Of a DNA stretch of 64,000 nt, positions 55,584 to 60,263 are shown in pieces. The notes beneath the pieces were generated by a model, which saw only the letters and a program-made list of their open reading frames with translations, was not told the origin of the DNA and did no database searches. A program made the translations under genes and the position numbers. How positions within the stretch are numbered: the stretch's first letter is position 1; each line of letters begins with the position of its first letter. This DNA comes from Desulfolutivibrio sulfodismutans DSM 3696 (GTDB lineage Bacteria > Desulfobacterota > Desulfovibrionia > Desulfovibrionales > Desulfovibrionaceae), in NCBI RefSeq assembly GCF_013376455.1, contig NZ_CP045504.1, positions 4,299,001 through 4,363,000 of the forward strand, read 5' to 3'.

Positions 55584-55862
55584 TCGAATTGATGAAATTA
55601 CCCGGTGTGGAGTTTTTGTCAAGGGGCAAGATGCCCCGGGGAGCCCCCGGGGTTCCCCCGATGGGCGGAGGCGGGCGCCGACACGCCCGGGCGCAGCAAC
55701 CCGTCCGGACGCAAGACATCCCTTTTTCCGGGGAGTTGCGTGCGGATGCCGGATGTCGCTTCAGGGTTGCCTTTTTTGCCCGCGATGTATAGAAGTAATT
55801 GGTTGTCGGCACGCTGCCCCAGGGCGGCATGCGATTTAAAACAATCAACCCAAGGTTTTTTC
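55584..55862. other. Intergenic region upstream of the mgtE leader
   Basis: No gene seen. The first half contains GC-rich stems (GCCCCGGGG/CCCCGGGGT type); the part from 55760 to 55860 is AT-richer and should hold the mgtE promoter. Confidence 0.4.
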
Positions 55863-55991
55863 ATGGACCCTGACGGTAGTCGGCCCCGAAAGGCCGCGCG
55901 GCGCCAGCGCCGCGACCAGACCATGTCCCGCGCCTTTTCCCGGCCGCGAGGGATGTCCTGGTCGCTCCCGTTTTCGGACGGGTCCGACTAA
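55863..55991 (+). CDS. Candidate magnesium-sensing leader peptide of mgtE
   Basis: 42 codons: begins Met-Asp-Pro-Asp, followed by a Pro- and Arg-rich stretch (GSRPRKAARRQRRD) and a later SRPRG. An acidic-Pro-acidic start followed by basic residues is the pattern of Salmonella MgtL (MEPDP...RRR), whose synthesis destabilises ribosomes at low magnesium and raises expression of the following transporter gene. An AAGG lies eight bases upstream of the ATG. It ends 75 bases before mgtE. No homology was tested; chance resemblance is possible. Confidence 0.45.
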   Translation: MDPDGSRPRKAARRQRRDQTMSRAFSRPRGMSWSLPFSDGSD

Positions 55992-56066
55992 GCCTTTCCC
56001 CTCCCGGTTCGCCAAAGGCGCGGCCAGTTCCGCAGCCTGTAATTCCCTGTGCAAGGGAGGCGAACC
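55992..56066 (+). promoter_or_regulatory. Folding leader that can mask the mgtE ribosome-binding site
   Basis: Three pairings are visible. GCCTTT/AAAGGC (55992-55997 with 56014-56019). GGTTCGCC (56006-56013), in the loop of that stem, is exactly complementary to GGCGAACC (56059-56066) directly before the mgtE ATG. TCCCT/AGGGA (56044-56048 with 56054-56058) covers the Shine-Dalgarno AGGGAGG. These could switch with ribosome position on the upstream leader frame. Confidence 0.45.
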
Positions 56067-58101: not shown

Positions 58102-58297
58102 ATGGGGTATTTTCTCTTTGTGGACGAAAGCGGACATGACCGCCGCGAGGCGCCGTACATGGTGCTGGCGGGAATCATTGTCGAAGATCGGAATATCTGG
58201 AACCTCATCCAGGCGATACGCAGGGCGGAAGAAGTCTTTTTTGGTATGCGGATCACCAAGGGTGAGCTGGAACTGAAAGGAAAAAAGCTCCTGAAAA
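58102..58297 (+). pseudogene. DUF3800 gene, 5' part, cut by an insertion sequence
   Basis: The first 65 codons (MGYFLFVDESGHDRREAPY ... KGKKLL) carry the acidic FVDESG motif of DUF3800 proteins. GGAGGA precedes the ATG. The frame runs on without a stop into the inserted transposase. Joined to 59566-60263 with one copy of the GAAAA duplicate it restores a 297-residue protein. DUF3800 proteins are often found with mobile or defence genes; their function is not settled. Composition is AT-richer than the flanks. Confidence 0.85.
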
Positions 58298-59560
58298 GAG
58301 ACCGTTGCACGGGAAAATGGCACAATTCTATTGTAATTTTAGGCAATTATGCTATATTTTCTCCATCAAAAATGATGGAGGCGATCATGAGCGAGCGCAA
58401 TTCCAAAAAGCCCGGTATTGCCGACTACGTCGTGTCCCATCGCAGGCACAAGGAATGCTTTCTGGATGAGATTGATCGCCTCATTGATTGGAAGCCGTTT
58501 GAGAAGCTTCTTCGAAAAAAGCTCAGCCGAGTCGTCAATGCCGTTGGTAATCCTGCATATGCACCGTTGCCGATGTTTAAAATCCTTCTGCTCCAGAGGT
58601 GGTACAACCTGAGCGACGCGGCGGTGGAGGAATGCTTGTACGATCGGTTGTCCTTTGTCCGATTCGTGGGCCTTTCCCTTGATCATGACGAGGTGCCCGA
58701 TTCCTCGACCATTTGCCGGTTTCGGCAGAGCCTGCTTGAAAAAAACGTCTTGAAGCGGCTTCTGGACAAACTCAACCATCAACTCCAGCGGCGCGGCTTA
58801 CTGGTACGTGAAGGAGCCATCGTGGACGCGAGCGTCATCACCTCCTCGCGCCGCCCCCTCAAAGTAATCGATATTCTTCCCGAAGATCGCGAGGAAGATG
58901 ACGACGAGGCGTCGGACGTAACCATCAGCTACTCCGATGACGCCGATGCGGCCTGGTTGCGCAAAGGGAACCGGGCTTATTACGGCTACAAAGTCCATGC
59001 GGCCACGGACAGCCGGGACGGCTTTCTCCTCGGCGGCCATGTCACGCCCGCCAACCGTTCGGATACGCAGGAATTCGTGGATATTCTTGATGAGATTGGC
59101 CCCATGCCAGGGGGCCGCATCTATGCGGACAAGGGATACAGCAGCCAGTTGAACAGGCATGTGCTCCAAGCTCGGAGACTTGCCGACGGCATCATGCATA
59201 AGGCCGCTCGCAACCGTGCGCTGAACCCCGCCGAAAAAGCGGCAAATCGTCAAGTTAGCAGCGTCCGGTCGAAGGTGGAACGGGCTTTCGGAACGCTCAA
59301 AAGAAGTTATGGCTTCTTCCGGACGCGTTACCTGGGGGTAGCCAAGGTTGAACTTGAATTTTTACTCAACGCTATGGCTTTCAACTTGAAAAAAGCGGTG
59401 CTCAAAGCGGGATGTTGAGGAACACTTACGCTAAGGAGTGACGAACGCCGCCTCAAGGTGAAACAAGATCAGCGCTGTCGGCTAAACGACGGCGGAAACA
59501 GACGACCGAGACCTTTCGAGAGAATTCCGTAACGACATCAGAGGATTGTGCAGCGGTCTC
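58298..59560 (+). mobile_element. IS5-family insertion sequence, 1263 bp
   Basis: Terminal inverted repeats GAGACCGTTGCAC (58298-58310) and, inverted, GAGACCGCTGCAC (59548-59560) match at 12 of 13 bases. The direct repeat GAAAA flanks both ends (58293-58297 and 59561-59565). The element carries one transposase in the same direction as the gene it disrupts. An AT-rich stretch at 58319-58370 probably holds its promoter. Intact ends and duplicate suggest a recent insertion. Confidence 0.92.
58387..59418 (+). CDS. IS5-family transposase
   Basis: 343 residues. N-terminal helical domain with ILLLQRWYNLSDAAVEECLYDRLSF, as in IS5. DDE catalytic residues are expected in IVDASVI (near 145), YADKGYSS (near 246) and VERAFGTLKRSYGFFRTRY (near 297). 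It appears intact. The ATG at 58387 has TGGAGGCGATC upstream. The same frame is open upstream to the disrupted gene, so a fused 438-residue product from 58102 is also possible. Confidence 0.93.
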   Translation: MSERNSKKPGIADYVVSHRRHKECFLDEIDRLIDWKPFEKLLRKKLSRVVNAVGNPAYAPLPMFKILLLQRWYNLSDAAVEECLYDRLSFVRFVGLSLDHDEVPDSSTICRFRQSLLEKNVLKRLLDKLNHQLQRRGLLVREGAIVDASVITSSRRPLKVIDILPEDREEDDDEASDVTISYSDDADAAWLRKGNRAYYGYKVHAATDSRDGFLLGGHVTPANRSDTQEFVDILDEIGPMPGGRIYADKGYSSQLNRHVLQARRLADGIMHKAARNRALNPAEKAANRQVSSVRSKVERAFGTLKRSYGFFRTRYLGVAKVELEFLLNAMAFNLKKAVLKAGC

Positions 59561-59565
59561 GAAAA

Positions 59566-60263
59566 GGAAAACATACAAATATGCATTGCAGTTTCCGGAT
59601 TATGAACCAGATGAGCGCACGAGGTTGGCAAGACGCTGTTTGGAAAAGGGTTTTTCAAGTCGAGGAAGTGAATGCAATGAAGTCACAAAATATGAATTGA
59701 CAGCTCTTGCACAGGCAAAGATTGCATATGTGAAATATGTTTTTGACGTATGCAGAAGATCTAATGTTAAAGCTATAGGTAGTATTGTAGATAGATCGTC
59801 GGCGATCCCCCAAGGGGCCGATTATCTCAGGAAGGACTATGCTTACCTCTTTGAAAGGTTCTATTATTATCTTGAGAATGTACATCGATCTGAAATGGGA
59901 TATATCGTTTTTGATGAGCTTGACAAATCACAAAGCCATATCCTCCTGGATCAAATGGAAGCGTATTTCATTAAAACGAAGAAAGGACGTGACCGGGCGG
60001 CAAGGATCATTCCGGAACCGTTCTTTGTCCACAGCGATATGAGTAGTCTTGTCCAAGTCGCTGATATTTTGGCATATGTTTTGTCGTGGGGGAAGGTGCT
60101 TCCAACAAAAGAATCCTGCCGCCCAGAACTTGGGGAGGTGGCACAAAGGGCCGTGGCCTTGCGAAGCGATGCCAGACGTGAAATCGCAGAAATCAAGAAA
60201 GGGCAGGAGTCGATCATCTATGGATTCGCATTGATTGAGAATCTTTGCGCCGGAGGAAAATAA
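59566..60263 (+). pseudogene. DUF3800 gene, 3' part
   Basis: The remaining 231 codons, beginning with the Lys/Tyr-rich stretch (RKTYKYALQFPDYEPDE) that joins the 5' part. It contains the second acidic region (IVFDELDKSQ) and SSLVQVADILAYVLSW, the conserved LxQxAD motif of DUF3800. A TTG at 59586 could start translation of this half alone, but without a ribosome-binding site. It is clearly AT-richer than the surrounding genes. Confidence 0.85.

Follow-up and report, generated by a model that had tools for sequence, protein, structure and literature searches.

A conserved leader ORF precedes mgtE in Desulfolutivibrio

The window, by which we mean the whole 64,000-nucleotide stretch of the Desulfolutivibrio sulfodismutans DSM 3696 genome that was analysed, encodes an Mg2+ transporter, MgtE, whose best solved relative by sequence is MgtE 2yvx (Table 1). 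With the window protein as the query one match was found in the organism's own genome, and with the MgtE of a relative (locus L035) as the query two were found. A sequence-only reading of this DNA had pointed to a 42-codon frame starting Met-Asp-Pro-Asp and lying 75 nt before the mgtE ATG (56067). This leader ORF is present, encodes MDPDGSRPRKAARRQRRDQTMSRAFSRPRGMSWSLPFSDGSD followed by a stop codon, and is kept in both congeners. Scans for sigma-70 promoters and for intrinsic terminators at this locus found 0 of each. A block further upstream, GGGTTGCC...TGTATA (window 55765–55795), is alike in the three genus genomes and may be the mgtE promoter. Elsewhere in the window a reading frame (58102–60263) is seemingly split by a transposase gene; the split frame is presumably DUF3800-like and the interrupting transposase IS5-like.

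Table 1. Features of the mgtE locus, in window coordinates
Feature	Position	Strand	Basis or remark
Weak Shine-Dalgarno-like site AAGG, 7 nt 5′ of the leader ATG	55852..55855	+	sequence
Leader ORF (uORF), 42 codons, MDPDGSRPRK...GSD-stop	55863..55991	+	translation; kept in genus, recurs in wider set
Codons 2–4, Asp-Pro-Asp, predicted ribosome-destabilising motif	55866..55874	+	identical in 3/3 genus genomes
Codon 6 of the leader, AGT (Ser), where the wider set is codon-locked	55878..55880	+	
GCGGCG-NNNN-CGCCGC hairpin inside the leader ORF	55898..55913	+	alignment, by eye
Candidate antisequester CCGCGCCTT in the leader ORF	55928..55936	+	could pair with 56015–56023
Anti-SD arm GGTTCGCC	56006..56013	+	genus alignment, shuffles, covariation
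mgtE Shine-Dalgarno (SD) GGAGG	56056..56060	+	sequence
SD-side arm GGCGAACC, adjoining the mgtE ATG	56059..56066	+	genus alignment, shuffles, covariation
mgtE, Mg2+ transporter, 487 aa	56067..57530	+	Pfam MgtE_N, CBS, MgtE

The genus comparison comprised three genomes (that of the window, G001 and G002), and the region is present in 3/3. The congener leader peptides, MDPDGSRPRKAVRRSRRDMTRTRAALRPRGPVRSLPSQGGSD and MDPDGSRPLPTVRRSRRDQTRTRAALRPRGFFRPVPSIPGTD, each followed by a stop codon, have the same 42 codons; a check of the genus for frame loss and for frameshifts found neither. The first 8 leader codons and both 8-nt arms listed in Table 1 are identical DNA in the congeners, with indels in the spacers, and the AAGG before the leader ATG lies within a block conserved in 3/3 genomes. 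The hairpin inside the ORF has identical arms and a loop that differs among all three genomes. Changes at codon positions 1, 2 and 3 numbered 9, 11 and 7 between the window and G002, and 13, 12, 9 and 10, 7, 6 in the other two genus comparisons. No purifying codon-position pattern was found in the genus over the whole leader frame or beyond its N-terminus, so what seems important is how the peptide starts and that the frame stays open, not the tail as protein. A genus-level DNA pattern allowing up to 2 mismatches matched 35 of 288 family genomes; of these matches only those in the three genus genomes resemble this leader, the others being judged by eye on the letters matched.

A predicted helix covers the mgtE start site

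The proposed pairing of GGTTCGCC with GGCGAACC beside the mgtE ATG was borne out, both arms being present in the window and identical in both congeners. A second proposed pairing, TCCCT (56044–56048) with AGGGA (56054–56058), is present in the window but is not kept in the genus, where G002 reads TTCCAGTGCAAGGGA and G001 ATTCCCATGGA. The 8-bp helix is mildly unusual in the window, where it is equalled in 0.04 of upstream shuffles; in G002 and G001 the fractions as good are 0.1 and 0.1. Across the wider set, the best helix that the SD region can form with sequence upstream of it outdoes shuffles (p ≤ 0.02) at 49/105 loci.

Compensatory change in the stem had also been anticipated; since the arms are invariant in the genus, the genus is silent on this point, and the matching changes come from the wider set. 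In an alignment of 45 sequences, 81.8% of the cells of an 11-pair sequester helix are paired and covariation is 0.294, compared to 0.183 in shuffled controls (0/500 reach 0.294) and a maximum of 0.133 when the helix is slid; an alignment of 20 sequences gave 88.6% and 0.233. One of the five covariation measures applied to the 45 sequences, the number of pairs changed on both sides, was ordinary (7 versus 5.3, reached by 79/500 controls). RNAalifold recovered 7 of the helix pairs unprompted from the 20-sequence alignment and predicted no pair from the 45-sequence alignment. Both alignments were made without structure; the larger holds 45 of 56 leaders (11 were dropped, 4 of them, L014, L017, L019 and L061, by hand) and the smaller holds 20 of the 56, chosen by hand where an arm was visible, which biases both alignments in favour of the helix. 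Finally, a search for the exact sequester pattern that made no use of mgtE matched 8/395 phylum genomes, and its backward control matched 0. Three of the matches are the genus, one is a locus already known and four are new; all four new loci stand before an MgtE-type frame (judged by eye, one being broken) and have a similar leader.

Leaders with acidic starts recur before mgtE

Relatives' loci comprised the best 80 of 155 MgtE-relative loci from species genomes, plus those from whole-genome searches. A strict search for Met, Asp or Glu, Pro, then Asp or Glu upstream of 78 distant mgtE loci gave one match, inside mgtE, and no leader; the wider set emerged only with looser, then automatic scans. 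The automatic test sought an ATG ORF with an SD before it and its end at −115 to −38 of mgtE, and called the start of this ORF acidic when it had at least 2 acidic residues at positions 2–8. At the 77 loci tested, which are not all independent as some are near-identical relatives, an ORF was found at 52, an acidic ORF at 44, an ORF with AGT at 38 and one with both at 34. The corresponding counts at the same 77 loci were 2, 0, 0 and 0 on the reverse strand, 8, 0, 2 and 0 inside mgtE, and on average 8.4, 0.85, 1.05 and 0.05 in dinucleotide shuffles. It is these relatives, more than the window helix taken alone, that carry the case.

The analyses of codon bias, AGU position, antisequester and folding were run on 56 leaders (of 106 loci) that were chosen partly by eye, some with internal starts. 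L081, L088, L093 and L099 are poor examples among them, and the loci include redundant ones (L004/L039, L005/L056, L006/L047 and several others; L078–L094 include many near relatives). The leaders range from 16 to 54 codons. The Asp-Pro-Asp motif recurs in L035, L039, L047, L056, L072 and L106, and the starts found across the set include MSDPDGSHRC, MSDSDGSHSC, MPDPDSRR, MIDPDSRR, MNDSEGGSQ, MDDPGGSS, MDDGGSSTRQ and MSCCEDGDPYPSKIDG; the leader of L008, from another genus of the same family, starts MSEQSGSRPR. A second acidic-proline stretch about 12–20 codons in (EEPEDPGPR, EESEDPGPR, DPDDPGPR, QDDPGPRK and RDDPGPRR in L174, L181, L053, L060 and L086) is absent from the window leader.

Hosts, as labelled in deposited records that are mostly metagenome-assembled genomes and may be mislabelled, are Desulfobacterota-type groups, Acidobacteria, Aminicenantes/Saccharicenans, BRC1, Fermentibacter, Spirochaetes, Hydrogenedentota, Marinimicrobia, WOR-3 and Abyssobacteria; named strains with a leader include Desulfatibacillum alkenivorans DSM 16219, three Desulfoluna species and Desulfothermus okinawensis. 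No leader was assigned at 50/106 loci, 3 of which duplicate leader-bearing loci, and divergent MgtE proteins (about 40% identity or less to the L035 protein) are mostly encoded without such a leader. Leader-like frames with GTG/TTG starts precede divergent mgtE genes at L161 (MDDSDSCQ) and L169 (MGDSD), and are perhaps remote members of the class. At L181 (G624) and L106 (D. okinawensis) the mgtE frame is broken near its start and the leader and sequester look intact.

Serine is nearly always encoded by AGU at codons 6–9

The leaders use serine codons in a strongly position-dependent manner. AGT makes up 67/124 Ser codons at leader codons 2–13, compared to 3/107 in the rest of the leaders and 70/1235 in the downstream mgtE genes; it is likewise rare in the mgtE, infB and nusA genes of the window (2/93). 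Its share of Ser is 15/15 at codon 6, 19/22 at codon 7, 5/8 at codon 8 and 10/12 at codon 9, as against 0/15 at codon 4 and 12/20 at codon 2. With 38 non-redundant leaders, AGT accounts for 35/41 Ser at codons 6–9 and for 8/48 at other codons up to 15. Nine hold-out loci, picked by eye on the look of the peptide and not on codons, with leaderless-looking loci (L145, L158 and others) uncounted, gave 13/15 and 3/13, respectively. Other codons raised in the leaders relative to the mgtE genes are CGA (16/49 versus 85/1296), GGT (21/60 versus 157/1203) and GAA (30/33 versus 854/1704); Asp codons have no bias (37:63 versus 560:948).

RNA structure was considered as the source of the AGU preference and rejected. 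Compared with synonymous resamplings, the start region has slightly less structure (mean z 0.67 and 0.53), and pairing of the AGU stretch with the downstream or upstream leader is no better than in shuffles (mean z 0.09 and 0.03; 36 loci). A pairing noticed by eye in the window and conserved in the genus, AGTCGG (55878–55883) with CCGACT (55984–55989), found no support in the latter test.

Could the leaders instead be attenuators of serine or codon supply, in which AGU stalls the ribosome when charged tRNA-Ser is short and the acidic residues are incidental? The high AGT share at the 41 non-redundant Ser positions is what such a mechanism would produce. However, AGC and AGU are read by the same tRNA, and AGC occupies only 3 of those 41 positions. 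Furthermore, no link between serine and mgtE is known, and the acidic start (44/77 loci versus 0/77 on the reverse strand) would be left as an accident. We consider serine supply a highly improbable signal.

A plain structured 5′ UTR, a riboswitch or thermometer with the ORF as a by-product, is also improbable. It would account for the fact that some of the 49/105 loci with a sequester-type helix are loci at which no leader was found, and there is a precedent in the Thioalkalivibrio mgtE motif SRC-65-1, a strong riboswitch candidate reported from a single genus only (PMC11109978), which as described also lies upstream of mgtE with the SD and AUG at the base of its last stem. In the consulted part of that description a uORF is not mentioned, whereas here there is a leader ORF, whose features far exceed those of shuffles and of the reverse strand. 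In addition, the AGU lock tracks codon position, and an Rfam scan at the gathering score found no family in 8 relatives and none but a tRNA in the window.

The reading that we prefer is that AGU, as a weak wobble codon, may help the ribosome drop off. More tentatively, and with the odds against it, the leaders might all belong to a single ancient class of nascent-chain Mg2+ sensors that crosses phyla, in which an acidic stretch in the exit tunnel acts together with the weak wobble AGU (codons 6–9) at the decoding site. If this two-part reading is true, codon–anticodon strength would be part of the magnesium sensor, an idea that we did not meet in the consulted parts of the Mg2+ leader-peptide literature.

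The tail of the leader ORF may act as an antisequester

In the genus, a pairing of CCGCGCC with GGCGCGG that could serve as an antisequester is kept in 3/3 genomes; it does not stand out significantly from codon shuffles (z −0.4, 0.12 and 1.05), nor does the pairing probability of tail and arm from that of shuffled tails (p 0.32, 0.23 and 0.22). In the wider set, part of the SD arm often recurs in the ORF tail, for example as GTGAACC in L035; in L048 an SD-arm-like GGCGAAC lies closer to mid-frame. For the 51 of 56 leaders with a usable helix, we scored the complementarity of the ORF, from codon 8 onwards, to the anti-SD arm. The mean z was −1.98, with p ≤ 0.05 at 30/51 loci, compared to −0.68 (p 1.6e-4) and 7/51 loci for the reversed arm; since this control departs from zero, part of the antisequester signal is composition. 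The true arm nevertheless does better than the reversed arm at 37/51 loci (paired p 7e-5), and among 36 non-redundant leaders p ≤ 0.05 was reached by 21 with the true arm and by 3 with the reversed arm. Before the SD is made, the predicted pairing probability of the anti-SD arm with the ORF tail averages 0.65, versus 0.40 for codon-shuffled tails. Thus, at the window locus, sequence comparison supports the predicted sequester well, and the candidate antisequester rests on the wider set.

Equilibrium folding was tried as a test of direction and dropped as weak: with the ORF free the SD was more open in 45/56 loci, and the gain is small (mean 0.29 versus 0.21), with none in the window (0.02 either way).

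The leader stop lies a median of 10 nt (quartiles 8–14.5) before the anti-SD arm, close enough that the helix could also be opened by a ribosome terminating there. This geometry speaks for a response of the opposite sign, in which a ribosome that has read the leader to its stop sits over the anti-SD arm and thereby opens the mgtE start, mgtE being switched on by complete translation of the leader. In the folding predictions the SD is indeed more open with a ribosome masked at the stop than with the ORF masked, in 46/56 loci. The opposite sign, however, leaves unexplained both the antisequester complementarity and the presence of destabilising start codons before a low-Mg2+ importer, and we regard it as quite unlikely.

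A model for translational control of mgtE

The leader and the RNA fold that follows it very probably form an on/off switch that senses ribosome performance, most likely at low magnesium, because the acidic start and the fold recur, with matching changes, before mgtE in several groups. We put the probability at about 0.6 that this switch attenuates the translation of mgtE by means of a translation-aborting leader peptide, in the manner of Salmonella mgtQ/mgtL. When Mg2+ is ample, ribosomes would read the leader ORF to its stop and cover the ORF tail, leaving the anti-SD arm (56006–56013) to pair with the mgtE ribosome-binding site (56059–56066) and turn mgtE off. When Mg2+ is low, the acidic/proline start (Asp-Pro-Asp) would cause ribosomes to drop off after a few codons, perhaps assisted by the Ser AGU codon. 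Freed in this way, the ORF tail would capture the anti-SD arm ahead of SD transcription, leaving the SD open and mgtE on. The comparative data support the conserved ORF, the covarying sequester helix, the complementarity of tail and arm in the wider set and the codon-locked AGU; we infer that the ORF is translated, that ribosomes drop off it, that Mg2+ is the signal and that the response runs in the direction given.

The same anatomy could serve another signal. The ABC-F protein EttA relieves pausing at acidic residues in the first 30 codons, the EPDP of MgtL included (PMC11282234), and a leader with early acidic residues might accordingly report the ATP or energy state, instead of or alongside Mg2+. 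The genome of the window strain does encode a protein that scores above the cut-off of TIGR03719 (936 bits). This family, which we take to be that of EttA, was also scored in 14/14 control genomes (4 above the cut-off), so its presence says little. On the other hand, all 8 places at which the mgtE-independent search met the sequester pattern lie before MgtE-type frames, a point in favour of Mg2+; the remaining loci, having been retrieved by way of mgtE, are uninformative about the signal. We consider an energy signal unlikely, and favour Mg2+ as the input to the attenuator.

Relation to known magnesium leaders

We take the mgtE leaders to be a class of translation-aborting uORF that was not previously met in the literature searched. 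Among the matches listed (titles and the starts of abstracts) there was no leader peptide before mgtE in such bacteria, and an mgtE leader class spanning several phyla was not found in titles and abstract starts either. In the literature consulted in part, the examples of ribosome drop-off as a magnesium sensor are those of Salmonella and E. coli. Were the mgtE class indeed widespread, the principle would be general and old, and there would be a natural library with tens of candidate drop-off sequences, in which the AGU lock would be a direct handle on whether decoding strength sets ribosome release.

Of the systems described to date, the M-box (ykoK) riboswitch likewise exerts RNA control over Mg2+ transport genes, and the Mtb Mbox, with its uORF2, likewise involves a small ORF (PMC12810186); an M-box, however, requires an aptamer, and the Rfam scan at the gathering score gave none here. 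corL, like mgtL, figures in the Mg2+ leader literature. The sequence-only reading had likened the window leader to MgtL. The mgtL leader shares an acidic-Pro-acidic start (EPDP, versus DPD in the window), and its drop-off at low Mg2+ is proposed to turn the transporter on (PMC11282234, PMC11552253). It precedes mgtA in Salmonella and E. coli, however, and acts through Rho-dependent termination (same sources), whereas here the gene belongs to the MgtE family and a predicted stem lies over the start site.

The sequence-only reading is borne out, in the genus and beyond, for the conserved ORF with its acidic/proline start and for a covarying helix predicted to hide the mgtE ribosome-binding site. 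Because this stem is predicted to lie over the start site, the nearest system known is not mgtL but Salmonella mgtQ, which acts on translation. The mgtQ uORF, of 8 codons between mgtC and mgtB, is a short ORF with early acidic codons before an Mg2+ transporter gene, and is described as exerting translational control through alternative stem-loops, one of which hides the transporter ribosome-binding site (PMC8092293), as the predicted helix would here. The mgtQ uORF stands within an operon before mgtB, whereas the leaders described here have 16–54 codons (42 in the window) and precede mgtE; unlike mgtQ as described, they carry the proposed antisequester in the ORF tail together with the AGU serine lock, and occur in several phyla as labelled.
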